From positions 1-53,944 of IMG/VR virus record IMGVR_UViG_3300032144_000013: a DNA stretch of 53,944 nt; one strand, 5' to 3'. The notes beneath the pieces are model-generated. The model saw nothing but the letters and a program-made list of their open reading frames with translations, did not search any database and was not told where the DNA came from. Position 1 is the first letter of the stretch. Each line of letters starts with the position of its first letter. Below are positions 2,610 to 48,661 of this stretch, one piece after another. The DNA is from a virus. Both the position numbers and the translations under genes were made by a program.

Positions 2610-3020
2610 TCAGCATGAAACCAGTGACAGGTGCACGCAGTACGGCACCTGCCGACTCGTGCTCGTGGTAATCTCGCCCTTCAGAACGTACGTTCCCAGC
2701 GGCGCATCGTCCGCAAACGTGTACGCAATCGTGATTCCTTCGCCGCTCTCGACGATGCGGTCGTTGCACTCGGTGTTCGCGGCCACTGCTGCTGGAGTGC
2801 CGAGTTCCAGGTCATCGCCACCGGAGATTGTCCCCACGGTTGCGCCGGTCGGCTTGCTGATGCAGGACACGGTTGCCGAGCTGCACGATTCACCAGCAAC
2901 GAGTTGACGGCGCGGCTTCACGCCGACAGCCGTATCGACGGCGCTGTTGTCGCCCGCATCCCATACGAGCGTGCCCTTTTTCCCTTGCCGAACGTCTCTG
3001 TAGGTGATTCCGCCGTCCAT
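2610..3020 (-). CDS. probable structural or accessory tail protein
   Basis: A 136-aa protein of unknown family. The start at 3018-3020 overlaps the upstream stop (TGATG). It opens MDGGITYRDVRQGKKGT, then looks like a beta-rich single domain with repeated Thr/Val/Gly strands and four or five Cys that could form disulfides. It is the last of five co-oriented genes (7.1 to 2.6 kb) that look like virion surface proteins. Placement suggests a small fibre-associated or decoration protein; no motif proves it. Confidence 0.6.
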   Translation of the reverse strand: MDGGITYRDVRQGKKGTLVWDAGDNSAVDTAVGVKPRRQLVAGESCSSATVSCISKPTGATVGTISGGDDLELGTPAAVAANTECNDRIVESGEGITIAYTFADDAPLGTYVLKGEITTSTSRQVPYCVHLSLVSC

Positions 3021-3268
3021 CAATTGCTCTCTGCGCTAAACAGGTCAGGGTCAACCGGAGCCGTGAACCAGTCCATTTCGTGAGGTGCAGTAAAGTGCAG
3101 ATCGGGGACGACGGCGGCGGCTGCTCCCGCCACGATCCCCGCATAACTCCACAATCCGTGCTGTCTGTCCGCCTGGTCAATCGTGCTGTCGGGCGCAGGC
3201 CACTGCCCACGCCACGGACACTGCGGGTTGATCGCACTTGATCGGCGGTTCCTTGTGTCGATCGCCAT
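3020..3268 (-). CDS. small hypothetical protein, tail-fibre operon
   Basis: An 82-aa protein coupled to the preceding gene by an ATGA overlap. Residues 1-35 are polar and Arg/Pro/Trp-rich. A short Ala/Val segment (AGIVAGAAAAVVPDL) near residue 45 could be membrane-associated or a helix, and the C-terminus is acidic. No family recognised. The overlap on both sides argues that it is a real gene of the fibre block. Confidence 0.6.
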   Translation of the reverse strand: MAIDTRNRRSSAINPQCPWRGQWPAPDSTIDQADRQHGLWSYAGIVAGAAAAVVPDLHFTAPHEMDWFTAPVDPDLFSAESN

Positions 3269-4683
3269 CAGGCACCCGTTGTGACCTCGCCGCGATCATA
3301 GGTGGTGCCGTTATCACTCACAGCCGCCTCCTGGTCCTTAGTGATTGCGTCGTCCGCGTACAGGGCGTATTCGCTGCTGGTCTGCGTGCTGCGGTTTCTC
3401 CATGCCTTGTAGAGATAGCCCAGCTTCGCCACGAGGCTTGCCGTGGCCGCTGGCGAACCCTGTCCCGGCTCTGCAAACGTGTCAGTGTTGAGCACGTCCA
3501 GCACTTCGGCGTTAATTTCCGCCTTTGCCGCCGTCGTGTGCGACGCGACGACAACGCCATCAGTCCCAGTGTCAGCAAGAATGGCATCGACGTCGGTCTT
3601 GAGTTGTTCGCCGAACGTGCCGGATGTTGTGTGCCCGCTCGTGGCCTCGTCCCACACGGCGTCGGCGTTCGCGGCGGCCGTGGGAATGCTCAGTGCTCCA
3701 ATTGCTGTAATCACGGCGTCATCCGCCGCTGTCAGCCCAGCACCAGCCGTGCCGATGTTGTCGCGGTTCGCTTCCAGAGAGTCGGTCGTTTCGTCGTATG
3801 TGCCACTGCCGCCGCCAGTCGCCCGCAGTTCCGTGCGCGCCGTACTGTTGCCGGTCTGCTTGCCGGCAATTAGCCCAAGCCACTGTGCGAGACTGGTGAT
3901 GCCCGTAAAGATCGCACTAATCGCCGGGATAGTCGTGGCGCTTGCCGTGTTTAGCGCCGATGCGTCGATCCGCGTGGCGTCATCGACCACGTAGGACAGG
4001 ATTTCGGCGTCAACATCAGCCGCAAATGTCGCCGCGTCAATCGCACCGTTCGCAATACTCGCCGCCGTAATCACGTTCGCAGCCAGCCCATTCACGGTGG
4101 TCACGTTCGTGGCCGTCGTCACCGTAGACACCGCGCCGCCGCTGGTGGTGATCGCTCCGGACGACACAATGGCTGTCGCCGCAATGTCGTTGAACGCTGT
4201 CTTGCCGGCTGAATCCGTCGGGAGACCGCCAGCCGCGCCTGCCGCAGCATCTGGAACAGCCGTCCCCGCCAGTCCGCGAGTCGTGCTGTACGCGCTATCA
4301 ATCAGCTTGTCATTGAGACCAGACGCCCGGAAACCGATCGTCGGGCCAACCCACGGCAAGATGCCCGTTGCAAATCCCGCAAACCACCCGACTCCCTCCG
4401 TGTCGTTGTTGATCGACGCGCCGCCACTTGCCGGGATTTCGATCGTGTAGAAGCCGTTCCCCTGATTCACCCAGTCGTAGTTCCCTCCCGTGTCCGTGGG
4501 AGTGACGGCCGTCTGAGTGAACGCTCCAGACGTCGTGATGAAGTTCCAGACGAGATCGAGACCGGCCTGGTTGTACGTGACCGACTCCTCGCGACTCTTG
4601 AAATCTCCGTCGTCGATCAGTTGTGCCTTGTTGATGGGCACTTCCGACAACGCGGTATCAACATCGACCCAGATGTCTGGCAT
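3268..4683 (-). CDS. large Ala/Thr-rich tail-fibre-like protein
   Basis: A 471-aa protein. The first 120 residues look like a beta-rich head domain (DWVNQGNGFYTIEIPASGG). From about residue 140 to 400 it is a low-complexity stretch of Ala, Thr, Ile and Asp with repeated short phrases such as IDAATFAADVDAEI, ADAVWDEATSGHTT and VDAILADTG. The C-terminus carries a short module with Tyr and Trp. This composition is typical of trimeric phage fibre shafts. It stands within a run of fibre-type genes. Host attachment is inferred from composition and context. Confidence 0.65.
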   Translation of the reverse strand: MPDIWVDVDTALSEVPINKAQLIDDGDFKSREESVTYNQAGLDLVWNFITTSGAFTQTAVTPTDTGGNYDWVNQGNGFYTIEIPASGGASINNDTEGVGWFAGFATGILPWVGPTIGFRASGLNDKLIDSAYSTTRGLAGTAVPDAAAGAAGGLPTDSAGKTAFNDIAATAIVSSGAITTSGGAVSTVTTATNVTTVNGLAANVITAASIANGAIDAATFAADVDAEILSYVVDDATRIDASALNTASATTIPAISAIFTGITSLAQWLGLIAGKQTGNSTARTELRATGGGSGTYDETTDSLEANRDNIGTAGAGLTAADDAVITAIGALSIPTAAANADAVWDEATSGHTTSGTFGEQLKTDVDAILADTGTDGVVVASHTTAAKAEINAEVLDVLNTDTFAEPGQGSPAATASLVAKLGYLYKAWRNRSTQTSSEYALYADDAITKDQEAAVSDNGTTYDRGEVTTGA

Positions 4684-4693
4684 TTTCTCGCTC

Positions 4694-5242
4694 TCACTGC
4701 TGCTGTCGGTAGTAGTACCACGGGTTGCCTGCAGCAGCAGCCGTGTAATCCACCTCGATGTAGATTTGCGTTAACTGCACCTCTTCGCCGGACGCCAGTC
4801 CGCCGGAGTTGACCCCGAACTCGGACAGCGGATTCGTCGCATCAACGCCGTTGACCTGGTCCACCGTCCATGCTGAGGCGGTATTGGGGTTGGTCGCCCA
4901 CGTCTGGAAGTAATCAGCCCATGACGTCGTCATGGCCTGACTGGTTCCGGTGGTGTTCGTACTGCCCACCCGGATCATCGGGGCCAAGGTGCATGCCCCG
5001 GCTGCCGTCCGCTGCGCGCGGAACCTCACCGTGACGCTGTTGATCGTGCTCCCGCCTGGAATTGAAAAAGCCGCGTGCGTGAACCGCTGAGTTCCGTTGC
5101 TGTTCTGCTTGAACACGAAGTCCGTGGCGTCGTTGGGAGAGCCGACGGGATCGTCGACGCACTCCCAGCGATTGCCCGCCGACGCCGTGAAGTCGTTGGC
5201 GACGGCGCTGTTGCCGGTCGGTACTCGTGTGTCAGTCGCCAT
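4694..5242 (-). CDS. beta-sandwich virion or cell-surface-binding protein
   Basis: A 182-aa protein with an alternating strand pattern (INSVTVRFRAQRT; VQLTQIYIEVDYT) and a FTHAAFSIPGGSTI segment, like jelly-roll proteins that occur in fibres and carbohydrate-binding modules. It has no signal peptide, consistent with incorporation into the particle. Its ATG directly follows the stop of the upstream gene (5243). It may be a fibre tip or accessory protein; the ligand is unknown. Confidence 0.6.
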   Translation of the reverse strand: MATDTRVPTGNSAVANDFTASAGNRWECVDDPVGSPNDATDFVFKQNSNGTQRFTHAAFSIPGGSTINSVTVRFRAQRTAAGACTLAPMIRVGSTNTTGTSQAMTTSWADYFQTWATNPNTASAWTVDQVNGVDATNPLSEFGVNSGGLASGEEVQLTQIYIEVDYTAAAAGNPWYYYRQQQ

Positions 5243-5557
5243 TTAGCGGAGTTTGTTGAACAGTTGCAGAACGGCCGCGTTCACGTTGTCCACGGATGCG
5301 TTGGTCGTCAGCTTCCCGAGCGCGCTGTTGATCTCCGCAAACGCCGATTTGCAGTCCGCACCGGTGTTCTCGAATCCGAAGTGCGCTGATGCACCCGCGA
5401 AGTGCGCGTTCTGCGAACCATCACCGTCGATCATCAGGTTCATGGCGTCGCGTTCGTCGATCAGCTCCTCAAGACCACGCTCCAGATTGTCGAGCGCCCT
5501 GCGCAACTTGAACCCGTGCGGCGTGCCCGCGTCGAATGCGTAGTGATTGTCGGCCAT
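5243..5557 (-). CDS. small hypothetical protein
   Basis: About 104 aa. The ATG at 5555-5557 was preferred over an earlier in-frame TTG because GGAG lies about ten bases upstream of it. The first half is helical (LRRALDNLERGLEELIDERDAM) and the second half also looks helical with a Leu-rich end. It lies between the secreted 519-aa protein and the jelly-roll protein. It could be a chaperone or trimerisation partner for the fibres. No family recognised. Confidence 0.6.
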   Translation of the reverse strand: MADNHYAFDAGTPHGFKLRRALDNLERGLEELIDERDAMNLMIDGDGSQNAHFAGASAHFGFENTGADCKSAFAEINSALGKLTTNASVDNVNAAVLQLFNKLR

Positions 5558-5558
5558 G

Positions 5559-7118
5559 TCATTCAATCTCCTGAACTGAACCGGTTAGCCAGTACCCGCA
5601 ACGCTTGGCCCGTACAGTCCACGCTCCAACCTCAATCTCGCCGCTCAGATCACACGGCGTGTAGACGAACAGCAGCGTCTGTGCGACACCGGGAATCTCA
5701 GTCTCCGTAGCGTACACCCGGTTCGCCGTCGCGTCGTTCAGCGGGCACGCGAGAACGCGAGTCGTGCCTTCCCGCCAGTAGCGGTTGATCGTCGGGTGAT
5801 CTGCGATGCGTTTCAGTTGCCGCAGCAACGCCAGTTCGTAGTCTTCCACCGTGGCGTTCGCGACGTCGGTCCGGCCGATGGACAGCAGGTACTCCGCAAC
5901 GTTCGGCTTGGGGGCCACGAGTATCTGAGTCGGCAGCGTGTTCGCGTTGTCCCACCAGACCAATCGCACTTCCTTGCCCGGTGACTGCATCCGCCACGCC
6001 ATCGCGGTGAAGAATCCCGCACACGACTCAGGATCGACGATGGCGTGCTGTTGGGACTGATGTCCGGCGATGACAGCAGGCGGAACGATATCGACGCTCA
6101 ACTCGCGCCACGCTGATGTCTGCCAGTCTGCCTGATAGCTCGCCAGTGCCTGCTCGTGTTGTGGGCTGGTGAGCAAAGAATCCGAGTACCACCCGAGGTA
6201 CAGAGCGATGCTGGCCGTCGTGTTCTGGTGATTCTCGTCGAAGCTGCCGTAGCCGACTGTTCGAAGTTTCCCACGCCAGCCGTCCGTCAGTTCCGCATCG
6301 AATGCCGCATACAGGGCGTGGTACAGGGCATTCTCTGCCGCGTGAAACTCGGATTCACAGTCCTCCGGTTTCCTGTTCCGACGCTCATCCACCCAATCGG
6401 CCAGTTGCAGCGACTTGCTCTCCAGGTTGGCACGCGGCAACCATGCCAGCGTCACGACCGTCACCCGCGTACCATCCGGCAACTTGACCTTCTCGGACTT
6501 CTCAGAGCACAGTTCCTTGAACTTGACCCGCTCGCCTTCGTTGTTCTCGCGAAGGATGATCTCGGTGGGACTCGGCACAATCTCCTGCAGCCGACGCATC
6601 CACGCTCCTGTCGCCCACAACCGGCCGCATTCCTGCCACTTGCACACTGGCCCCACGGGGTTCGGCTCGGGCGTCTGATCCAGAGTGCCATCAATCTTCC
6701 GCCGCACGCACAACACCGACTCCCGCCAGTTCTCTTCCGTCAGCACCATGCGCGGGATCGTGGCATCGATCTCGCCGGTGATGTTGTTCATCCGCAGCAC
6801 GATCGGCCCGTTGTTCATCCGCGACAACAGCGGAGCATTGCCGTTCAGGATGCCGATCTGCTTCGGAACCCCGTCAACGATCGCCCCGCCTTCCCGCAGT
6901 GCCGCGTTAATCATGCGGATGGACGGCTCGACCGGATAACCGGCGTCAATCTGGGCCTGCTGCCACTGGTAGCCGTGGCCGTCGATGTGCCAGATGGAGA
7001 ACAGCGGGCCAGCAGACGACTGGACTTCATCTCCAGCCGGCCAGCCGCCTCCGCCCAGAAAAGGACCGTCGGCGCTTGCCGTGGAGACCAGCAGCAGGGT
7101 GGCGAGGATGATTTTCAT
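5559..7118 (-). CDS. secreted 519-aa protein, possibly a carbohydrate-active enzyme
   Basis: The start at 7116-7118 gives a clear Sec signal peptide (MKIILATLLLVSTASA) and forms an ATGA overlap with the preceding 80-aa gene. The open frame continues upstream, but that part reads out of character. The mature protein has many Trp and Tyr and acidic residues (FSIWHIDGHGYQW; YLGWYSD; LVWWDNANTLP), and ends with a strand-rich segment of about 80 residues. A TIM-barrel hydrolase with a C-terminal beta domain is possible, but no catalytic signature was identified. Signal peptides are unusual for tail parts, so a released surface-acting or lysis-associated enzyme should be considered. Confidence 0.62.
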   Translation of the reverse strand: MKIILATLLLVSTASADGPFLGGGGWPAGDEVQSSAGPLFSIWHIDGHGYQWQQAQIDAGYPVEPSIRMINAALREGGAIVDGVPKQIGILNGNAPLLSRMNNGPIVLRMNNITGEIDATIPRMVLTEENWRESVLCVRRKIDGTLDQTPEPNPVGPVCKWQECGRLWATGAWMRRLQEIVPSPTEIILRENNEGERVKFKELCSEKSEKVKLPDGTRVTVVTLAWLPRANLESKSLQLADWVDERRNRKPEDCESEFHAAENALYHALYAAFDAELTDGWRGKLRTVGYGSFDENHQNTTASIALYLGWYSDSLLTSPQHEQALASYQADWQTSAWRELSVDIVPPAVIAGHQSQQHAIVDPESCAGFFTAMAWRMQSPGKEVRLVWWDNANTLPTQILVAPKPNVAEYLLSIGRTDVANATVEDYELALLRQLKRIADHPTINRYWREGTTRVLACPLNDATANRVYATETEIPGVAQTLLFVYTPCDLSGEIEVGAWTVRAKRCGYWLTGSVQEIE

Positions 7119-9021: not shown

Positions 9022-9771
9022 TCAAGCAGCAGTCGGAACGAGTACCGCATACGCCTCGCTGGGATCCGCCTTGCTGCCGGTGATGAATCCCCGGCCAGCC
9101 GTCCCCCAGGTCGTGTTCCACGAATTGTCGATCCAGTATCCGAGCTGGTTGTTCACCACGTCCGGCTCGACGGCGCACACCAGGTGCCCCCACCAGTCGA
9201 AGGCGACCGAGCAGGGAATGTCCCGGACCAGCAGGGTCATCACCGAGTAGAAGTCGTCGGGGATGTCCGCGAAGTCAGTGACGTTGAACGCCTTCCGGGC
9301 CTCGCGCGACTGCTCGTTGTCGTACCGCTTGTCAATCGCATGCTCGGGCCAGAGAGATTCCGGAGCGACGCCCCACTTCTTGATCCCGGCCAGGCACTCC
9401 CCGCCCCAGCCGCCGACGTTCTTGTAGTTCTTGATGAGGCAGGCCACGCTCGCCGGCGACAGCGATACGTGCTCCTCGCCCATCTGCAACCGGGTCAGTT
9501 CGAGCATCCGAATCGCTCCGAACGCCCAGCAGTAATTGGTCCCGTTCTGGTTCTTGATCCCGACGCCGTTCGCCTTGCTCCGCGCGATCAGTCCGATCCG
9601 GTTCGCCTTCCGGAAAGCGATCTGCTCTTTGAGTTCCGTCGCCGTCAGCGGGGTTCCCGTCCACGCGGCCGCGTACGGCAGCTTCCCGAACTCGACCGGG
9701 CGCGGCTCCAGTCCCTTTGAGAAACCGTCCGGCGCGGGAGGCGGATTGTTCGGGTCGATTACAAAGCTCAC
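9022..9771 (-). CDS. papain-like (C1 family) cysteine peptidase
   Basis: The start is GTG 9769-9771, which overlaps the preceding TGA (GTGA) and has GGGGAGG five bases upstream, giving 249 aa. Catalytic residues are all visible: Gln75 and Cys81 in NQNGTNYCWAF, His196 in WWGHLVCAV, and Asn216 in YWIDNSWN, with the usual glycine-rich end (GTAGRGF). No signal peptide is seen, and there is only a short N-terminal part in place of a long propeptide. It could process virion proteins, act on the host envelope as a proteolytic lysin, or target host proteins. C1 peptidases are rare in tailed phages. Confidence 0.85.
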   Translation of the reverse strand: MSFVIDPNNPPPAPDGFSKGLEPRPVEFGKLPYAAAWTGTPLTATELKEQIAFRKANRIGLIARSKANGVGIKNQNGTNYCWAFGAIRMLELTRLQMGEEHVSLSPASVACLIKNYKNVGGWGGECLAGIKKWGVAPESLWPEHAIDKRYDNEQSREARKAFNVTDFADIPDDFYSVMTLLVRDIPCSVAFDWWGHLVCAVEPDVVNNQLGYWIDNSWNTTWGTAGRGFITGSKADPSEAYAVLVPTAA

Positions 9772-10214
9772 TTGAACCTCCCCATCAGGGCGATCGTCGC
9801 TTCGACGCCATCCGGCAGCGGCCCGGTGAATCCCTTTGTTCCGTGAGCGATGTGAATCCACGGCAGCGAATCGAACTTCAGCTTGAACGCTGCCGCTTCC
9901 GTCGCCGTCATCCCCGCCGTCGGCGTGTCCTTGTCGAACACCCGCAGGTGAGCATTGTTCGCCTTCGCCCAATCACGCACGTCCTGCGAGGTCAGCGCCG
10001 CGAAGTGACCGCGCGACAGTTCCCCACGCATCCGGGTCTCGGTCTCTTCGATGATGACCACCGTCAGTCCTTCAGACGGAAACGGCGCACCATCGACGAC
10101 AACCGGGTCCGGCTTGGGATCCGGCTTCGGGTCGGGAGTCGGCGGTTTCCCCCCGGCCAGTGCCAGGAACAGCACCAGCGCCACAACGATCAGCGACTTG
10201 GCGTCAATTTGCAT
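9768..10214 (-). CDS. membrane-anchored or secreted protein with possible thioredoxin-like fold
   Basis: A 148-aa protein from the ATG at 10212-10214. The N-terminus MQIDAKSLIVVALVLFLALAGG is a signal anchor, followed by a DPKPDPKPDP linker. The globular part has a beta-alpha-beta pattern and a LPWIHIAHG segment resembling the cis-Pro loop of thioredoxin folds, but no CxxC, so redox catalysis is unlikely. It overlaps the upstream gene by 11 bases and is coupled to the peptidase gene by GTGA. It may be a partner or regulator of that protease. Confidence 0.6.
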   Translation of the reverse strand: MQIDAKSLIVVALVLFLALAGGKPPTPDPKPDPKPDPVVVDGAPFPSEGLTVVIIEETETRMRGELSRGHFAALTSQDVRDWAKANNAHLRVFDKDTPTAGMTATEAAAFKLKFDSLPWIHIAHGTKGFTGPLPDGVEATIALMGRFK

Positions 10215-29823: not shown

Positions 29824-30591
29824 CTACAGCAGTCCTAGATCTCGGTTCGTGCAAGCGTGCTCGCCGAACAACTCGATTGCCTTCTTGTCGTATGCTCGCG
29901 CCGCTTCAACCTCCGTCGCGAACCGGCCCACGTGCACCTGCTTCCGGTCAACAGTGATCGTCACCTTGAACGGTCGTGGACCGCGCTTTTCGCGGTACAC
30001 GCCCTTGAACGGGGATGACGCACCCCCTTCACGAATAACCTTCGCCGCGTTCCTGCCGTTTTCTCCCGACGTGACAACCCGAAGATTCTGTCTGCGGTTG
30101 TTCAGCCTGTTCCTGTCGCGGTGGTCGGTTTCCATGCCAGTTGGAGTTTTTGCGATTAGTCGGTGCATCGCGCCAGCGGATGCAGACCATGCGTACCCAG
30201 TCGGCGACAAGTACCACGAATGCTCCGCAACCAGGGGAGCGTCCTCGGCGTCGCACAGCGCGCATTCAGACGTGTTTCCGAGAGGAACCTTCGCAATGCC
30301 GTTCACGATGACTACCGCCGTCGTGTTCTTGCGAATCAGGTTGCATCTCCGGCAGTCGAGAGGATTGCCGTTTAGGTGTCTCACGTGCTCGCCCTTGCTG
30401 GTTTCGAGAATGAAACCGGGGAGCCGCGCGTACCCGCCCTTCCTGTCCGACGCCGATGTCTGAACGAATCTTTTTCCGTTCGCCGACGTTGCCACCCGCC
30501 AACGCATGCTCGACACTGACGGCAGATCGACAGCATCGACGATGATTTTCTCACCGCCAATTGCGGTGACTTCGGCAACCGCCTGTTGCAT
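29824..30591 (-). CDS. HNH endonuclease with C-terminal AP2 domain
   Basis: A 255-aa protein from the ATG at 30589-30591, GGAG upstream. A first strand-rich part with RHLNGNPLDCRRCNLIRKNT resembles an HNH core. A second one, DHRDRNRLNNRRQNLR, follows near residue 160. The AP2-type end reads SSPFKGVYREKRGPRPFKV and FATEVEAARAYDKKAIELFG. Such HNH-AP2 proteins are typical mobile homing nucleases. Confidence 0.82.
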   Translation of the reverse strand: MQQAVAEVTAIGGEKIIVDAVDLPSVSSMRWRVATSANGKRFVQTSASDRKGGYARLPGFILETSKGEHVRHLNGNPLDCRRCNLIRKNTTAVVIVNGIAKVPLGNTSECALCDAEDAPLVAEHSWYLSPTGYAWSASAGAMHRLIAKTPTGMETDHRDRNRLNNRRQNLRVVTSGENGRNAAKVIREGGASSPFKGVYREKRGPRPFKVTITVDRKQVHVGRFATEVEAARAYDKKAIELFGEHACTNRDLGLL

Positions 30592-30736
30592 GGAACGTCT
30601 CCGTCGCACATCCGACGGGTCGCTCAAGAATGAGCAAAGCGTCGGCGATCTCCTGAGTTCGTCATCGGGTCTCACGCCGATTCGGAACTCACCAAAAGTC
30701 AAAGCCGCGTATCAGGCCAGCCCCGACACGCGGCAT

Positions 30737-31303: not shown

Positions 31304-31374
31304 TTCCCTCGGTTGGAATCGAACCAACGACTCGGCGATGTAAGCGCCGCGCGTTGCCATTACGCCACGAGGGA
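31304..31374 (-). tRNA. tRNA-Val (anticodon UAC)
   Basis: 71 nt with a perfect 7-bp acceptor stem (TCCCTCG/CGAGGGA), D arm, 5-bp anticodon stem CGGCG/CGCCG, loop CTTACAT with U33 and anticodon TAC, a 4-nt variable region, 5-bp T stem GTTGG/CCAAC and an A discriminator. No CCA is encoded. Located between the integrase and the HTH gene. Confidence 0.85.
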
Positions 31375-31599: not shown

Positions 31600-32592
31600 A
31601 TGTCTCAATCTCACCTCGCTGCACGCCGGGCCACATCGGGCGTTCGCATGCAAGATGCCTTCGACGGCACAGCCGCGCGCCGTCTCAATGCGCGGACCTG
31701 TTTCGACACGCTCTACAAGCTGTGGGCACCAGACCTGGCCCCACGCACGGAGCGCCGCTACAGGCATGAGCTGAACCGATGGGAAAAGCTCACCAACGAT
31801 CCGCCGTTGTCCGAGATTTCGACAACGCTCTATCAGCAGTTCCGGGCATCCTCTTCCCAGCTCGGACACGCTGCCGGCACAACCGAATCGACCCTGAGAT
31901 TCATCCGGCAACTGATGCGCTGTGCCCTCGCGCACGGGGCCATCAACGTCATCCCCGATCGGGGCCGCGCCCGGCGCATTGACGCTCCACAGCCGCACCC
32001 GCCGTCGATCGACGAACTCGACCGAATGTTCCGGGTCTGCGAGGTGGCGCGCTGGCCGCGACTCCACGTTCCCACGAAAATATTCTGGCGAAGCTGGATG
32101 GCCGTGGCACTATGGACGGCACTGCGCCGCGAGGACATTTTCTGGCGGTTGGCACTGGAGCACATCGACTTCAAGGAAAGCCGCATCCTGTTCCGGGCGC
32201 ACAAGAGCAGCGTCCCGCATACGTTCCCCTTGAACGAGATCGTCACCCGCCACATTCGGGCAATGGTCCCCACATTCTCCCACAACACCCGCCGCGTGCT
32301 GTTCAACCCGTCGCGAAGTCCGCACCTGATTCAGCGCGAGCTTGACCGGATGGCAGACGCTGCTGAAGTGCGCAGGATCACCCCGCAGAACTTCCGGCAG
32401 GCGGGAATCAATATGTGGACGATTGCCGATCCCAGGGCCGGAGAAGTCATCCACGGCGTCGGAATCCCCCGCGTCCTGAGCCACTACCTCGACCGGCTCC
32501 AGATTTTGAAGAACGCCGCCGACAACGTGATTGTCCCCGCGTCAATGACGGAGTTTGGCTCTGGTCGCCGGCAGGGGACGCTGTTCGATTGA
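31600..32592 (+). CDS. int: tyrosine-type integrase/recombinase
   Basis: A 330-aa plus-strand protein. The core-binding N-terminus includes LAPRTERRYRHELNRWEKL. The catalytic part has ALRREDIFW (Arg176 or Arg177), AHKSS (Lys202), and TPQNFRQAG in the place of the usual HxxR (Arg266), with VLSHYLDRL carrying a candidate Tyr296 nucleophile. The HxxR His is replaced by Gln. A start at ATG 31648 is possible. GGAGG lies upstream, but it fits another frame better. Very likely the phage integrase. Confidence 0.75.
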   Translation: MSQSHLAARRATSGVRMQDAFDGTAARRLNARTCFDTLYKLWAPDLAPRTERRYRHELNRWEKLTNDPPLSEISTTLYQQFRASSSQLGHAAGTTESTLRFIRQLMRCALAHGAINVIPDRGRARRIDAPQPHPPSIDELDRMFRVCEVARWPRLHVPTKIFWRSWMAVALWTALRREDIFWRLALEHIDFKESRILFRAHKSSVPHTFPLNEIVTRHIRAMVPTFSHNTRRVLFNPSRSPHLIQRELDRMADAAEVRRITPQNFRQAGINMWTIADPRAGEVIHGVGIPRVLSHYLDRLQILKNAADNVIVPASMTEFGSGRRQGTLFD

Positions 32593-32715
32593 CGACGTAC
32601 CACGCCGTTGCGCTGGCTGTGCGGCACGGGCTGATCTAGCGTCCAGATTGACAACGCCGGCCGCGCGATGCGACGATGATGCCGTCAACGGGCCGCTCTC
32701 TCGGGGGAAGAATCT

Positions 32716-33849
32716 ATGAAGCGTTCTGGCTTCACGATGATTGAAATGCTCGTTGTGCTCTCGATCATCCTGCTGCTGTTCGGCCTGACAATGACCGTCA
32801 TTACGGCGTCGATGGACAACGCCAGGGCCGACGCGACGCGAACGACGGTCAGCTACATCGACAAGGCGATCGAGGACCGCATCGAAGCGCTGGGTCGGAA
32901 CAATGTCCGATCACACGCCCGCGCGTTCATGGTGGCGTATAACGTAATCAACGCGGACAAGATCGACGAACCGCTGGCTCGCGTCATTGTCACCAAAGAC
33001 CGATTCCAGCAGGCGCTGCCGACCCGATTGGAGGATATGTTCGGTCTCGACGGCACTCCGGGGACTCAGGACGACAGCCCGCTCTGGAGAGTCTGGAAGA
33101 AGACGATGAACGCGAATGGCATCGTCACCACTGACGCCGACATCCGGCCGACCGGGCACATCCGGGAGAACGAGAACGCCGAACTGCTCTATCTGTTTCT
33201 GACTGAAGGCGCGACCTACGGAGAGATACGGTTCCGCAGCGACGACATTATCACGCGGCACCTACGGGATTCGCCGATCGACACTGACGGCAACGGGTCG
33301 TTCGACAGACCCGGCAACGGAATCCCCGAGATCATCGACGAGTGGGGCAACCGGATCCGGTTCTACGGCTGGACTCACAAGCTCACGCGGCCAGGTGGCG
33401 GAACTACGGACATCAATCAGCCGCTGTTCACGGCAACGGCTGGACACATGCTGAACACGATCAACCCTCCGGCGTCCCCAGTGCCGTTCACGATGACCGG
33501 CCACATGGACAGTCCGCTGAATCAGGATCCAGACGACCCGTACGGGCGGCTCTCTGCCGCACAGAACTCAACCGGCTTCGCGTCTGCCCCGTACCAGATT
33601 CGCCTGCCGTCAGGTGCAGTCGTGACGTGCAAGGCGTTCAACGAGGACAACTATCACCCTCTCGACACGTACAGCATTCCGCTTGTTGTGTCGGCTGGAC
33701 CGGACGGAGTTCTCGGTCTGGTAGAGCCGACCGGCTTTGATCCGATGACCGGAAACTATGACGCGGACCTGCGCACGGCCGAACCGCTTGGGTATCGTGC
33801 TGCGTGGCGCACGGACGCTGTCTACGACAACATCACGGCGCACAACTAG
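32716..33849 (+). CDS. type II secretion/type IV-like pseudopilin
   Basis: A 377-aa plus-strand protein with GGGGGAAG upstream. MKRSGFTMIEMLVVLSIILL is a class-III prepilin leader (G5, F6, E10 after the cleavage site). A calcium-loop-like DTDGNGSFDRPGNG and DEWGNRIRFYG follow, the D-x-WG phrase of pseudopilins. It lies alone between integrase and the tail block, as an accessory (moron) gene. The host prepilin peptidase would have to process it. A tail or conversion role is possible. Confidence 0.82.
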   Translation: MKRSGFTMIEMLVVLSIILLLFGLTMTVITASMDNARADATRTTVSYIDKAIEDRIEALGRNNVRSHARAFMVAYNVINADKIDEPLARVIVTKDRFQQALPTRLEDMFGLDGTPGTQDDSPLWRVWKKTMNANGIVTTDADIRPTGHIRENENAELLYLFLTEGATYGEIRFRSDDIITRHLRDSPIDTDGNGSFDRPGNGIPEIIDEWGNRIRFYGWTHKLTRPGGGTTDINQPLFTATAGHMLNTINPPASPVPFTMTGHMDSPLNQDPDDPYGRLSAAQNSTGFASAPYQIRLPSGAVVTCKAFNEDNYHPLDTYSIPLVVSAGPDGVLGLVEPTGFDPMTGNYDADLRTAEPLGYRAAWRTDAVYDNITAHN

Positions 33850-34583
33850 CCGGACATCCCGCGCAGTCTGGTCGGAATCTCCTTGCTTCCCGAAATCACG
33901 TCAGTCTCCAAAGTTCCATCGGGACCAACGACGTACATCATCGGCGTGGCGAACTTCCCGTACCTGAGCGAGATTTCCCACTGCTTCTGCATGACGATCG
34001 GGAACGTCAGTCCGAGCTTTTCCGCCTTCGCGACAGTCGCCGCTGCGTCTCTCCGGCTAATCATCAGCACCTTGACGCCGCGCTCATGCGCCGCCTGCAC
34101 CTCGGGCACCACGGCATCGCACGGACCGCAGTTCGGGTCTGAGAACACCAGAACCAACCGCTCCCCGGCATAGTCAGCCAGTGCAACTTCCGCACTTCCG
34201 TTTGCCAGCGGGAGCTTGAACCCCGGCGCGACGGTTCCGGACTTGAGTCCGTTGCGCTCGATTTTGCTTCGCGCGAGCGATGGATCTGGCTGCTTTCCTT
34301 CCGGGACTTCTTCCCGCTTTTTTTTAGCGGCAGCGACGGCTGATTCCGCCTTCATACGCTTCAGAGACACGAGCGGCAGCGTGACGACCTCCACCCGCTC
34401 GCCGTTGAAGAACGTACCGAAATCGTCGTGACAGTCCGGGCAATGCCACTTGCCAATGATGAATCCGCCACTGTCCGAGGTCTTGGACGCAACCATCTTC
34501 GGTTTCATGTACTGCATGTTCGGGTGCTGGCACACCTCCACAACGCCATCGACGGTTTCCATCTCTTCGGTTTGCATGTCCAT
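33846..34583 (-). CDS. thioredoxin/TlpA-like protein with N-terminal zinc ribbon
   Basis: A 245-aa protein. CQHP plus WHCPDCHDD form an N-terminal zinc site, a charged linker reaches about residue 110, then APGFKLPLANG, LVLVFSDPNCGPCDAVVPE (CGPC redox pair) and FATPMMYVVGPDG with the cis-Pro. No signal peptide, so probably cytosolic or in the particle. Its TAG shares bases CTAG with the stop of the convergent pseudopilin gene. It may reduce tail disulfides or follow the Cys-rich gene upstream. Confidence 0.76.
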   Translation of the reverse strand: MDMQTEEMETVDGVVEVCQHPNMQYMKPKMVASKTSDSGGFIIGKWHCPDCHDDFGTFFNGERVEVVTLPLVSLKRMKAESAVAAAKKKREEVPEGKQPDPSLARSKIERNGLKSGTVAPGFKLPLANGSAEVALADYAGERLVLVFSDPNCGPCDAVVPEVQAAHERGVKVLMISRRDAAATVAKAEKLGLTFPIVMQKQWEISLRYGKFATPMMYVVGPDGTLETDVISGSKEIPTRLRGMSG

Positions 34584-34586
34584 TCC

Positions 34587-36326
34587 TTACGCCGGCACGT
34601 TGTCACAGGTTTCTGAACCGGCCGCGCACTCACAGAAGCGAGCAGCGCACGGCGCGGTGTCGAAGGCTTTCGAGTTGTCCGATCCCGACAGAGCAAAGCA
34701 CTCTGCCTCCGATCCGACGTACGTACATTCGCAATCGTCGTCGCTGGAGCAGTCTTCGGAGCCGCCGCCGACAGTCGAGACGCAGCACGAGTTGCAGCCG
34801 GGGATTTCGGCGCAAGTAGTCCCCGGCCCCCAACTGAATTCGTCAGCGCCAACGCAATCAGATGCTGGCACCTCGTTACACGTTCCGTTCGACCGGCAGC
34901 AGGCGACGTTGCACTCGTCACAGGACGCTGCGGGCGTGCCGCTAACCGCCAGGCAGGCCGCGTAGCCGATGGCAGCGCATGTCCCGTCAGGCATGCAGCA
35001 GACGTCGGCGAAGCAGTCACCGGGAGAACAATCGACCCCGGCATTCCACTCCCCACCGATGTCTTCGCAAATCGTCTGGTCGATGTAGTCGTAGCAGGCG
35101 TTCTGGTAGCAGCAGTAGCCAAGCGGATTCGCCGGCGCTGCCGTGCTCGTGCAATCCACGTCGACGCACGCACCGGAAGACGTCGGCGAGATCGGAGCGC
35201 CGGGAGCTTTCAGGGTGAGAGTGTCGGGGCCGTCGCAGAAGTCTTCAGCATGCGCCATCGCCGTGAGGGTGATATCCGAGCCGTCGTACGGAAACGAGAC
35301 GCTTCCAGAGTACGCAGCCACCGGTGAATGCGTCCCGCAAGTAAGAGACGTCCCCCCGATGCCATCAGACGTGATCCTTGTTCCACCCTGATAGATGTTG
35401 AGAATGAGATTGCACTCGTCGCCTCCGAAAAAGCCTCCTCCTCCGCCACCAGTCGCGGACATCTCCGCGTGAAAGACTCGGTCGCACGTTGTGTCGTCGG
35501 AGCTGAACCACGAGTTGCAGCGGTTTCCAGTCAGAGGATCGTCGTCGAGATCGGGATTCGTTTTGATCTCATCGTTCTTCCAACGACACGTACCGCTGCT
35601 CCGCAGAACGAACGTCGCATTGAACAGTTCGCAGGCATAGTCGCCGCACGCGAACGGTCCGGTCCCTTGAACCCATCCGTCACTCTCCACCAGGAACGTG
35701 ATGTCCGACGCAAAGCAGTTCGTACACTCGAACCCGCCCAAGTCCCCGCTCGGCGCAACCGGCTTCAGGCACGCATAGCAGGACAAACGGGAGCGGTTGA
35801 TTCCCTCGAACAGTCCGTACGGCTTCGCCAGGATGAACTTGTTGTCGCAGTTGCACTGGAACCCATCCATTCCGTATTCAAGGCAGACGTCATCGCCGCT
35901 GTTGTCAGTCTCGACTACCAGACGCATGATGGTTCGGCCGTCAACGTCGGCTTCGATGTAGAACACGAAGACATCGTCGTTGTCGGGGATCGTAAACGGC
36001 GTACTGATCCAGTCGTCGGACCCCGCGTAGAAGAAGTCCAGTTCCTCTTCCGACGCCCCGGAGATCGGGTTTGTCATCGTAAAATGCGGGTGCCCCTCAC
36101 AGCACTCCGTCGCGCTCGGCAACGTCACGCCCGCGATGCAGTGGCCGCAGTCGCACTCGACGCCATCGGGGAAGCCGTTGTCGGGGGCGCTGGTGCTGGT
36201 GCCGCCATACCGACGGCTGATCTGCTCCGGCACGCGAAGATAGGCACGCGGCGTACCCTCCACGCGGCGCGTTGCTGCTGCGATGCGCTTCGCGTCGTTC
36301 GTGCGGAAGATGCCGTAGTCGGCCAT
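34587..36326 (-). CDS. Cys-rich tail or receptor-binding protein
   Basis: A 579-aa protein with about 60 Cys. The first 390 residues are a virion-like domain set with paired Cys. The last 175 residues hold four repeats of a CC-x-x-x-GxC-type unit (CCMPDGTCAAIGYAAC; CCRSNGTCNEVPASDC), as in extracellular proteins of planctomycetes. Many disulfides imply work outside the cell. It sits at the end of the tail operon and next to a thioredoxin-like gene. Receptor binding is inferred. Confidence 0.68.
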   Translation of the reverse strand: MADYGIFRTNDAKRIAAATRRVEGTPRAYLRVPEQISRRYGGTSTSAPDNGFPDGVECDCGHCIAGVTLPSATECCEGHPHFTMTNPISGASEEELDFFYAGSDDWISTPFTIPDNDDVFVFYIEADVDGRTIMRLVVETDNSGDDVCLEYGMDGFQCNCDNKFILAKPYGLFEGINRSRLSCYACLKPVAPSGDLGGFECTNCFASDITFLVESDGWVQGTGPFACGDYACELFNATFVLRSSGTCRWKNDEIKTNPDLDDDPLTGNRCNSWFSSDDTTCDRVFHAEMSATGGGGGGFFGGDECNLILNIYQGGTRITSDGIGGTSLTCGTHSPVAAYSGSVSFPYDGSDITLTAMAHAEDFCDGPDTLTLKAPGAPISPTSSGACVDVDCTSTAAPANPLGYCCYQNACYDYIDQTICEDIGGEWNAGVDCSPGDCFADVCCMPDGTCAAIGYAACLAVSGTPAASCDECNVACCRSNGTCNEVPASDCVGADEFSWGPGTTCAEIPGCNSCCVSTVGGGSEDCSSDDDCECTYVGSEAECFALSGSDNSKAFDTAPCAARFCECAAGSETCDNVPA

Positions 36327-47000: not shown

Positions 47001-47394
47001 CTTCGATCTCCAGTTCTGCCGCCACGGCAACCGCGACTTCCAGTTCCGGTGCGACTTCCTCACAAACGACTTCGGCGACAGGCACCGCACCGTCGAATCC
47101 CGGAACGATCTTGTCGGCTGTCAGCGCCAGCGCCTGAGTGCCCAGCCAGTCGTTGACGTGCCCAACCGCGTTCCGCTCGCGTTCGGAGAATGAATCGCCA
47201 CGACTGAACCGAAGCCGCAGCGCCACGTCGTCGGCCGCTGTATCTCCCATTGCCGCGCGAACGTATTCCACAACGCCAGCGTGCCACTCTTCGGCCACTG
47301 AGAAGTCGCCGAATGATGCCTGACCGCCTCCGCAGGCCGCGTCACCATCGCGTGCCAGCGCCAGCAACCCGTCGCGCACTTCCTGAACAGTCAT
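46975..47394 (-). CDS. hypothetical acidic protein
   Basis: A 139-aa protein with Val/Ala/Glu-rich end (VAEVVCEEVAPELEVAVAVA) and a helical start (MTVQEVRDGLLALARDGDAA). The last third is low in complexity. Placed between epimerase and HTH genes. No family recognised. Confidence 0.55.
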   Translation of the reverse strand: MTVQEVRDGLLALARDGDAACGGGQASFGDFSVAEEWHAGVVEYVRAAMGDTAADDVALRLRFSRGDSFSERERNAVGHVNDWLGTQALALTADKIVPGFDGAVPVAEVVCEEVAPELEVAVAVAAELEIEDGDTGPRD

Positions 47395-48446
47395 GCCACC
47401 TCCCTTTGCTGTTGTGCTTCGACGATCTCCGCGACCGTCTGTTCCAATGAATACTCCTGCCGCCAGTTCGGATAAGCCGCCTCAAACTTCCGCGTGTCCG
47501 TGATCCACCATTTGTGGTCGCCCATGCGCGGCTCTGCGACGTGCTCCAGAGTCATCTTCCGACCCGACAGCCGCTCCGCCATCGCAATCGCCTCCAGCAC
47601 GCTACAGGACCGCTCAGGACCGCCGCCGATGTTGTAGACCGCTCCCGGCGTCGGGTTGTTCACGTACTCCACGAACGCCCGCACGAGGTCGCTGGCGTGG
47701 ATGTTGTCGCGCACCTGCTTCCCGCCGTAGCCGATGACCTTGTACTGCGTCCCGTTCACGACGCACTTGCACAGGTACGACAGGAACCCGTGTTGCTCGA
47801 CGCCCGCGTGTCCCGGTCCCGTCAGGCACCCGCCCCGGAAACAGACGGTGTTCATGCCGAAGTAGCGGCCGTACTCCTGCACGTAGACGTCTGCGGCGAG
47901 TTTTGAGCAGCCGAATAGGGAATGGGTGCACTGGTCGATAGGTGTCAACTCGTCGAAGCCATGTGGAAACGATGGCACGTCAAATCGCGTCTCGTGGACA
48001 TGCATCGCTAACTGGTTCGGCCAGTCGCCGTAGACCTTGTTCGTGGAGCAGTGGACGAACGCTGCATGAGGGCACCATGCGCGCGTCATTTCCAGCATGT
48101 TCAGCGTGCCAGTCGCGTTTACGTGGAAGTCTGCGGTTGGGGCCGTGGCCGCCCAGTCATGCGAAGGTTGCGCCGCCGTGTGAATCACAGCCTCTATTTG
48201 GTCTCCATATCCCGCGAACATGTGCGAGTAACGGTCCGGTTCCCTTATGTCCGCTTGCACATGCCAATATCCGGGGCACAATCCGTGAAGGACTGCGGAG
48301 GTGTTGTCCGTGCACCCGCCCTCCCCGAAGAATTGGCGGCGACAGTTGTTGTCAATCCCGACAACGCGATACCCCAGCGCCGCGAACTGCCGCACCGCTT
48401 CCGATCCCACAAGCCCGGCGCTGCCGGTGACGATGACGGTTTTCAT
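47391..48446 (-). CDS. NAD-dependent sugar-nucleotide epimerase/dehydratase
   Basis: A 351-aa protein from the ATG at 48444-48446. MKTVIVTGSAGLVGSEAVRQ has the GxxGxxG NAD-binding loop; HTAAQPSHDWAAT, HCSTNKVYGD and HSLFGCSKLAADVYVQEYG cover the catalytic part with Lys in FGCSK, the Tyr position being Phe as in the CDP-tyvelose/paratose-epimerase-like group I recall. It likely makes a nucleotide sugar for the glycosyltransferases downstream. It stands within the head operon. Confidence 0.82.
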   Translation of the reverse strand: MKTVIVTGSAGLVGSEAVRQFAALGYRVVGIDNNCRRQFFGEGGCTDNTSAVLHGLCPGYWHVQADIREPDRYSHMFAGYGDQIEAVIHTAAQPSHDWAATAPTADFHVNATGTLNMLEMTRAWCPHAAFVHCSTNKVYGDWPNQLAMHVHETRFDVPSFPHGFDELTPIDQCTHSLFGCSKLAADVYVQEYGRYFGMNTVCFRGGCLTGPGHAGVEQHGFLSYLCKCVVNGTQYKVIGYGGKQVRDNIHASDLVRAFVEYVNNPTPGAVYNIGGGPERSCSVLEAIAMAERLSGRKMTLEHVAEPRMGDHKWWITDTRKFEAAYPNWRQEYSLEQTVAEIVEAQQQREVA

Positions 48447-48661
48447 GCTCGCTGTGCTCCGCAACCACGACAACGACCGTTCTCTGGTTCGCCACTGCTG
48501 CCGCAGAACAAGCAATCTCCGGACGGCTGCACCGGTGCGTTTCTGTCGTTCAGAATCACCACGCGACACCCGGTGCCGCTGTACGTGGCTTCCCATTCCC
48601 TCCGCAGTCTGTCGCGTGCTTCTCGCGACATTGGCGGCAGCGTCGGAACCGGCATCCCCAT
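48443..48661 (-). CDS. small zinc-finger protein
   Basis: A 72-aa protein with GAGGG upstream. CLFCGSSG and CRGCGAQ at the end give a four-Cys ribbon. A polar N-terminus. Overlaps the epimerase gene by four bases. It may be an adaptor or a regulatory protein. Confidence 0.6.
   Translation of the reverse strand: MGMPVPTLPPMSREARDRLRREWEATYSGTGCRVVILNDRNAPVQPSGDCLFCGSSGEPENGRCRGCGAQRA

Follow-up and report, generated by a model that had tools for sequence, protein, structure and literature searches.

The window analysed here, an entire IMG/VR virus record of 53,944 bases, carries an intact prepilin gene at 32716-33849 whose product is a phage-borne homologue of a planctomycete operon pilin, encoded outside that operon. 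"Class B" is the name coined here for the planctomycete pilin family orthologous to the phage protein. Because the protein is a full-length homologue of a pilin from a chromosomal planctomycete operon, the gene is considered host-derived cargo. We give about even chances to the reading that it is a phage moron, a diverged class-B orthologue captured from a planctomycete chromosome, whose product enters the host filament and alters the pilus. The gene comprises the following features.

32703-32709, plus strand: ribosome-binding site GGGGGAA, identified from the sequence and ending 7 nt upstream of the ATG
32716-33849, plus strand: prepilin/pseudopilin gene, class B; 377 amino acids, ATG start, intact open reading frame
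32716-32730, plus strand: prepilin leader MKRSG, with cleavage predicted after G5, from profile matches and sequence
32731-32805, plus strand: hydrophobic N-terminal part of the pilin alpha-1 helix (FTMIEMLVV...), from profile matches and model
33337-33351, plus strand: DEWGN motif, residues 208-212, inside the most conserved class-B block
33691-33708, plus strand: SAGPDG, residues 326-331, a GspG-like loop motif by resemblance only

Judged by its leader, the product is a real prepilin. The sequence MKRSG/FTMIE places G at -1, F at +1 and E at +5 ahead of a hydrophobic helix, which is the leader pattern of the type IV prepilin/pseudopilin superfamily (terminal G, F/M at +1, E at +5). The 377-residue protein exceeded the curated cut-offs of both Pfam N_methyl (24.2 bits, cut-off 21.2) and NCBIfam IV_pilin_GFxxxE (24.6 bits, cut-off 16.3). 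An earlier sequence-only reading had reported a complete prepilin leader and a DEWGN motif, and both are present as described. The ribosome-binding site is strong, with a predicted anti-SD duplex of -8.6 kcal/mol. Matches to solved structures were confined to the N-terminal helix, apart from one hit at chance level. The AlphaFold2 model, built from two sequences (pLDDT 33, helix at residues 8-61), is usable for the N-terminal helix alone and is otherwise uninformative.

Among named systems, GspG, the major pseudopilin of the type II secretion system (TIGR01710), shares with the phage protein the leader, the N-terminal helix and the patterns D-x-W-G-N and S-x-G-x-D-G, but the phage protein is more than twice as long and the similarity is limited to the N-terminus. 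The calcium-type loop of the sequence-only reading is a motif resemblance only, SAGPDG being GspG-like in pattern; the GspG profile aligns convincingly over the N-terminal region only. The protein scored 30.2 bits against the GspG equivalog cut-off of 88.85 and fell under the cut-off of every other named pseudopilin equivalog. Since no such cut-off was reached, class-B pilin is the safest name, rather than GspG. The PHROG collection recognizes a phage pilin category, PHROG 3433 'pilin' (moron, auxiliary metabolic gene and host takeover), which has N-terminal similarity to the window protein, but the match is weak (E 0.0041).

Single-sequence searches of viral, genome, phage and plasmid collections returned nothing or N-terminal similarity only; homologues surfaced through C-terminal searches of whole genomes and then through profiles. 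The C-terminal 319 residues alone had matches in 27 of 392 Planctomycetota genomes (E<=0.001). With the whole protein, 38 of the 397 genomes belonging to the best hit's class matched at E<=1e-15, with one match each. The best homologue, in genome G268 (E 3.4e-68), aligns over essentially the whole length and is the nearest host orthologue, although at 39-43% identity it has diverged by about 60%. It is encoded in a pilus or type II secretion-like operon with the order PilB/GspE-PilT-PilB/GspE-GspF/PilC-A-B-C-D-E; among the five pilins class B comes second, between pilin A and the GspH-like pilin C. The same arrangement, A before B and C after B, was seen by direct inspection in most of another dozen genomes, and the layout of two larger genomic contexts was compatible with the operon as judged solely by gene sizes and order. 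Chromosomal copies thus hold the place between A and C, whereas the phage gene stands as an orphan between an integrase gene and a thioredoxin-like gene. In the operon pilin itself the generic prepilin N-terminal domain alone is recognized, and the family is without a name.

Besides full-length homology, similar length and a leader, the phage copy retains 16 of 16 invariant columns in a 14-sequence class-B alignment, including E10, R55, P102, D208, F216-Y217, D271-P272-D274, S326, G328 and D371. It differs from the aligned chromosomal copies in having a shorter leader (5 amino acids) and in carrying 12 inserted residues ahead of PEIIDEWG. The kin of the pilin, together with terminase homologues in 55 of the 347 genomes from the same planctomycete class, indicate that the host is probably a planctomycete.

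The phage genome has its terminase, portal and major head protein genes on the minus strand at 45-53.7 kb, and a left arm with an exonuclease, an Erf-like annealing protein, a replication initiator and an HNH endonuclease. The integrase and pilin genes, both on the plus strand, separate the tail-end genes from the left arm and are opposite in strand to the late genes, in agreement with the earlier description of a gene in its own orientation between integrase and tail genes. The immediate neighbors are:

31600-32592, plus strand: tyrosine-recombinase integrase, directly upstream of the pilin; PHROG integrase match at 1.2e-15, Pfam match below cut-off
33846-34583, minus strand: thioredoxin/AhpC-TSA-like gene, convergent with the pilin and overlapping its stop by 4 bases

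Codon usage of the pilin gene correlates with that of the other window genes (r 0.946) and its GC3 is also phage-like, so nothing points to a recent insertion. A search for viral relatives of the integrase found none, and no repressor was recognized in the phage genome. The integrase suggests a temperate life, a tentative reading in view of its divergence and of the lack of a recognized repressor. In a close relative (contig L103/L170), whose terminase is 84% identical to that of the window phage, translated open reading frames at the equivalent place after the fibre genes read as a helicase and a methyltransferase-like gene, and no pilin was found in the contig. As this contig is a fragment, the result indicates different cargo at that place and not absence from the whole phage.

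Several other genes were noted in these regions. The thioredoxin/AhpC-TSA-like protein contains a CGPC motif and adjoins a gene for a 579-residue protein (34587-36326, minus strand) with 50 cysteines and no Pfam match, on whose disulfides it may act. Beside the integrase is a tRNA-like gene with a TAC (Val) anticodon (31304-31374, minus strand), which is either a phage tRNA or an attachment-site remnant; a search of 347 related genomes with this sequence gave weak DNA matches alone and no convincing attachment site. An HNH_3 endonuclease of homing-endonuclease type with a weak AP2 match (29824-30702, minus strand) lies near the integrase module, and a papain-family (C1) cysteine protease is encoded at 9022-9972 (minus strand). 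A nucleotide-sugar epimerase-like gene (47391-48596, minus strand) lies between the portal and head protein genes, and in the relative L103 a gene resembling one for a CMP-sialate synthetase (4674-5995) occupies the portal-head interval.

The position next to an integrase is the classical place for lysogenic-conversion genes. The pilin gene has the character of such a moron, as it is an accessory gene in its own orientation, adjacent to the integrase and not found at that place in the close relative. The prepilin leader, the orthology to a subunit of a pilus operon and the integrase-side position are all consistent with a moron whose product the host peptidase would cleave before it joins the host filament. 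The phage pilin would be expressed from the phage genome, cleaved after G5 by the host prepilin peptidase, and built into that filament as a variant of the minor subunit, replacing the resident class-B protein or competing with it. The phage subunit would then alter how the filament assembles or retracts, or which surface it exposes. Such subunit substitution is, in our view, the most likely mechanism, a judgment held with evenly balanced confidence. Its most likely benefit would be less adsorption of competing phages or limited superinfection, with changed attachment or secretion as the alternative benefit. Blocking of other phages by the pilin is plausible. A review describes several phage proteins that act on type IV pili, disabling them and keeping out competitors or reducing superinfection (PMC11436027). 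D3112 Gp05, DMS3 Aqs1 and Pf4 pVII are likewise phage genes acting on the host pilus machine and excluding competitors (PMC11436027), but these inhibit the machine or its motor, whereas the window protein is a homologue of a filament subunit.

Prepilins are not confined to this phage. A prepilin-leader scan of viral contigs gave 39 loci, and DUF1559 (PF07596) was above cut-off in 25 of the 30 leader-bearing virus records checked, with a single copy in almost every such record, contigs larger than 100 kb included. In sampled records, the neighbors of viral DUF1559 genes, typed with PHROGs since Terminase_6N is a poor hallmark for these records, included RIIA, a UvsX-like recombinase, DnaB and ribonucleotide reductase. 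Records L074, L083, L090 and L096 are among those with DUF1559, and several have RIIA, UvsX-like or DnaB genes nearby. These DUF1559 proteins resemble the window protein in having a leader, a single copy and phages of probably related hosts, but a PF07596 match is absent from the window protein. Class-A pilins from this type of planctomycete operon also occurred as orphans in two more virus records, at 2965-4011 in a 511 kb record (L197) and at 3-623 in a 28.5 kb record (L198). Because of these orphans and the many DUF1559 prepilins, the earlier reading is wrong, for phages of this host group, in calling pseudopilins almost unknown among tailed phages. Its proposal of a lysogenic-conversion candidate loses that claim of rarity, but keeps a real prepilin, homology to a host pilus/secretion operon and accessory cargo beside an integrase. 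Within the literature searched, no account of phage-encoded pilins or of DUF1559 in phages turned up, although this does not prove novelty. One Vibrio paper links a prophage gene with pseudopilins, but its subject is the down-regulation of host genes and not a phage pilin.

Phages that combine a DUF1559 prepilin with RIIA and UvsX-like genes are probably lytic, and such prepilins therefore need not act in lysogens. The occurrence of prepilin-type genes in these phages favors an auxiliary gene that supports the host pilus or secretion system during infection, for example in attachment or exoprotein secretion, instead of blocking competitors. The conservation of all class-B residues points the same way, as it suggests a working subunit and not a poisoned one. 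However, no other subunit or motor gene of a pilus or secretion machine was recognized in the phage, and a lone minor subunit would be an odd means of raising capacity; we regard this explanation as unlikely, if deserving of serious consideration.

A class-B pilin also occurs on a second, unrelated viral contig (L064/L171), where the end of the contig truncates it; it has D instead of E at +5. The contig has a virion-structural PHROG match, and its virion gene set differs from that of the window phage. A C-terminal profile scan of viral contigs for class B gave no confirmed hit, and this copy thus rests on other searches, including the prepilin-leader scan. Phylogenetically, G268 is the partner of the window copy (92/90), and G309 that of the L064/L171 copy (93/88), which is a fragment on a very long branch with an odd letter make-up. 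A single clade of both phage copies was rejected (AU p 0.0002), so the family was probably captured at least twice. Given these features of the L064/L171 copy, the tree is good but not final evidence for two class-B captures by phages. We also considered that the gene is a neutral or decaying passenger, a host gene acquired by chance and without phage function. Class B in just one other viral record and the different cargo in the close relative are what a passenger might show, but the open reading frame is intact, every invariant residue persists although the protein is about 60% diverged from its closest host counterpart, the ribosome-binding site is strong, the codon usage is phage-like and phages have captured prepilins repeatedly. 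This makes a passenger improbable.

The tail part that the sequence-only reading had offered as an alternative found no support. In favor of a pilin fold used for host contact in a tail or fibre, the pilin gene adjoins tail-end genes, and the class-B gene of the second phage lies near virion structural genes. Nevertheless, its strand is opposite to the late genes, the prepilin leader directs the product to the host inner membrane, the protein is orthologous to a chromosomal pilin and the close relative has other cargo at that place, all of which leave a virion component very unlikely. An assembly artefact or host DNA inside the viral contig has a negligible chance: host contamination occurs in virus collections generally, but here phage genes flank the pilin on both sides, its stop overlaps the next phage gene, its codon usage is phage-like and the host operon neighbors A and C are absent beside it.

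Returning to subunit substitution, we tentatively entertain, as possible but doubtful, a more general form. In it, phages infecting planctomycetes and related bacteria would repeatedly acquire single host (pseudo)pilins, whether class A, class B or DUF1559 prepilins, and substitution would be a general means of controlling the type IV pilus or secretion filament. If true, this route would differ from that of the inhibitor proteins already known.

Type IV pili often serve as receptors for phages. The phage proteins known to target them work by inhibition (PMC11436027), and a phage supplying its own version of a structural subunit would represent another route to receptor control. The phage pilin also provides a testable handle on a conserved and little-studied planctomycete pilin operon, and on the unexplained DUF1559 prepilins in viral genomes. 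The presence of a diverged, phage-borne pilin subunit, together with independent pick-up by other phages, suggests that phages may remodel a surface machine of their hosts with a part of their own.
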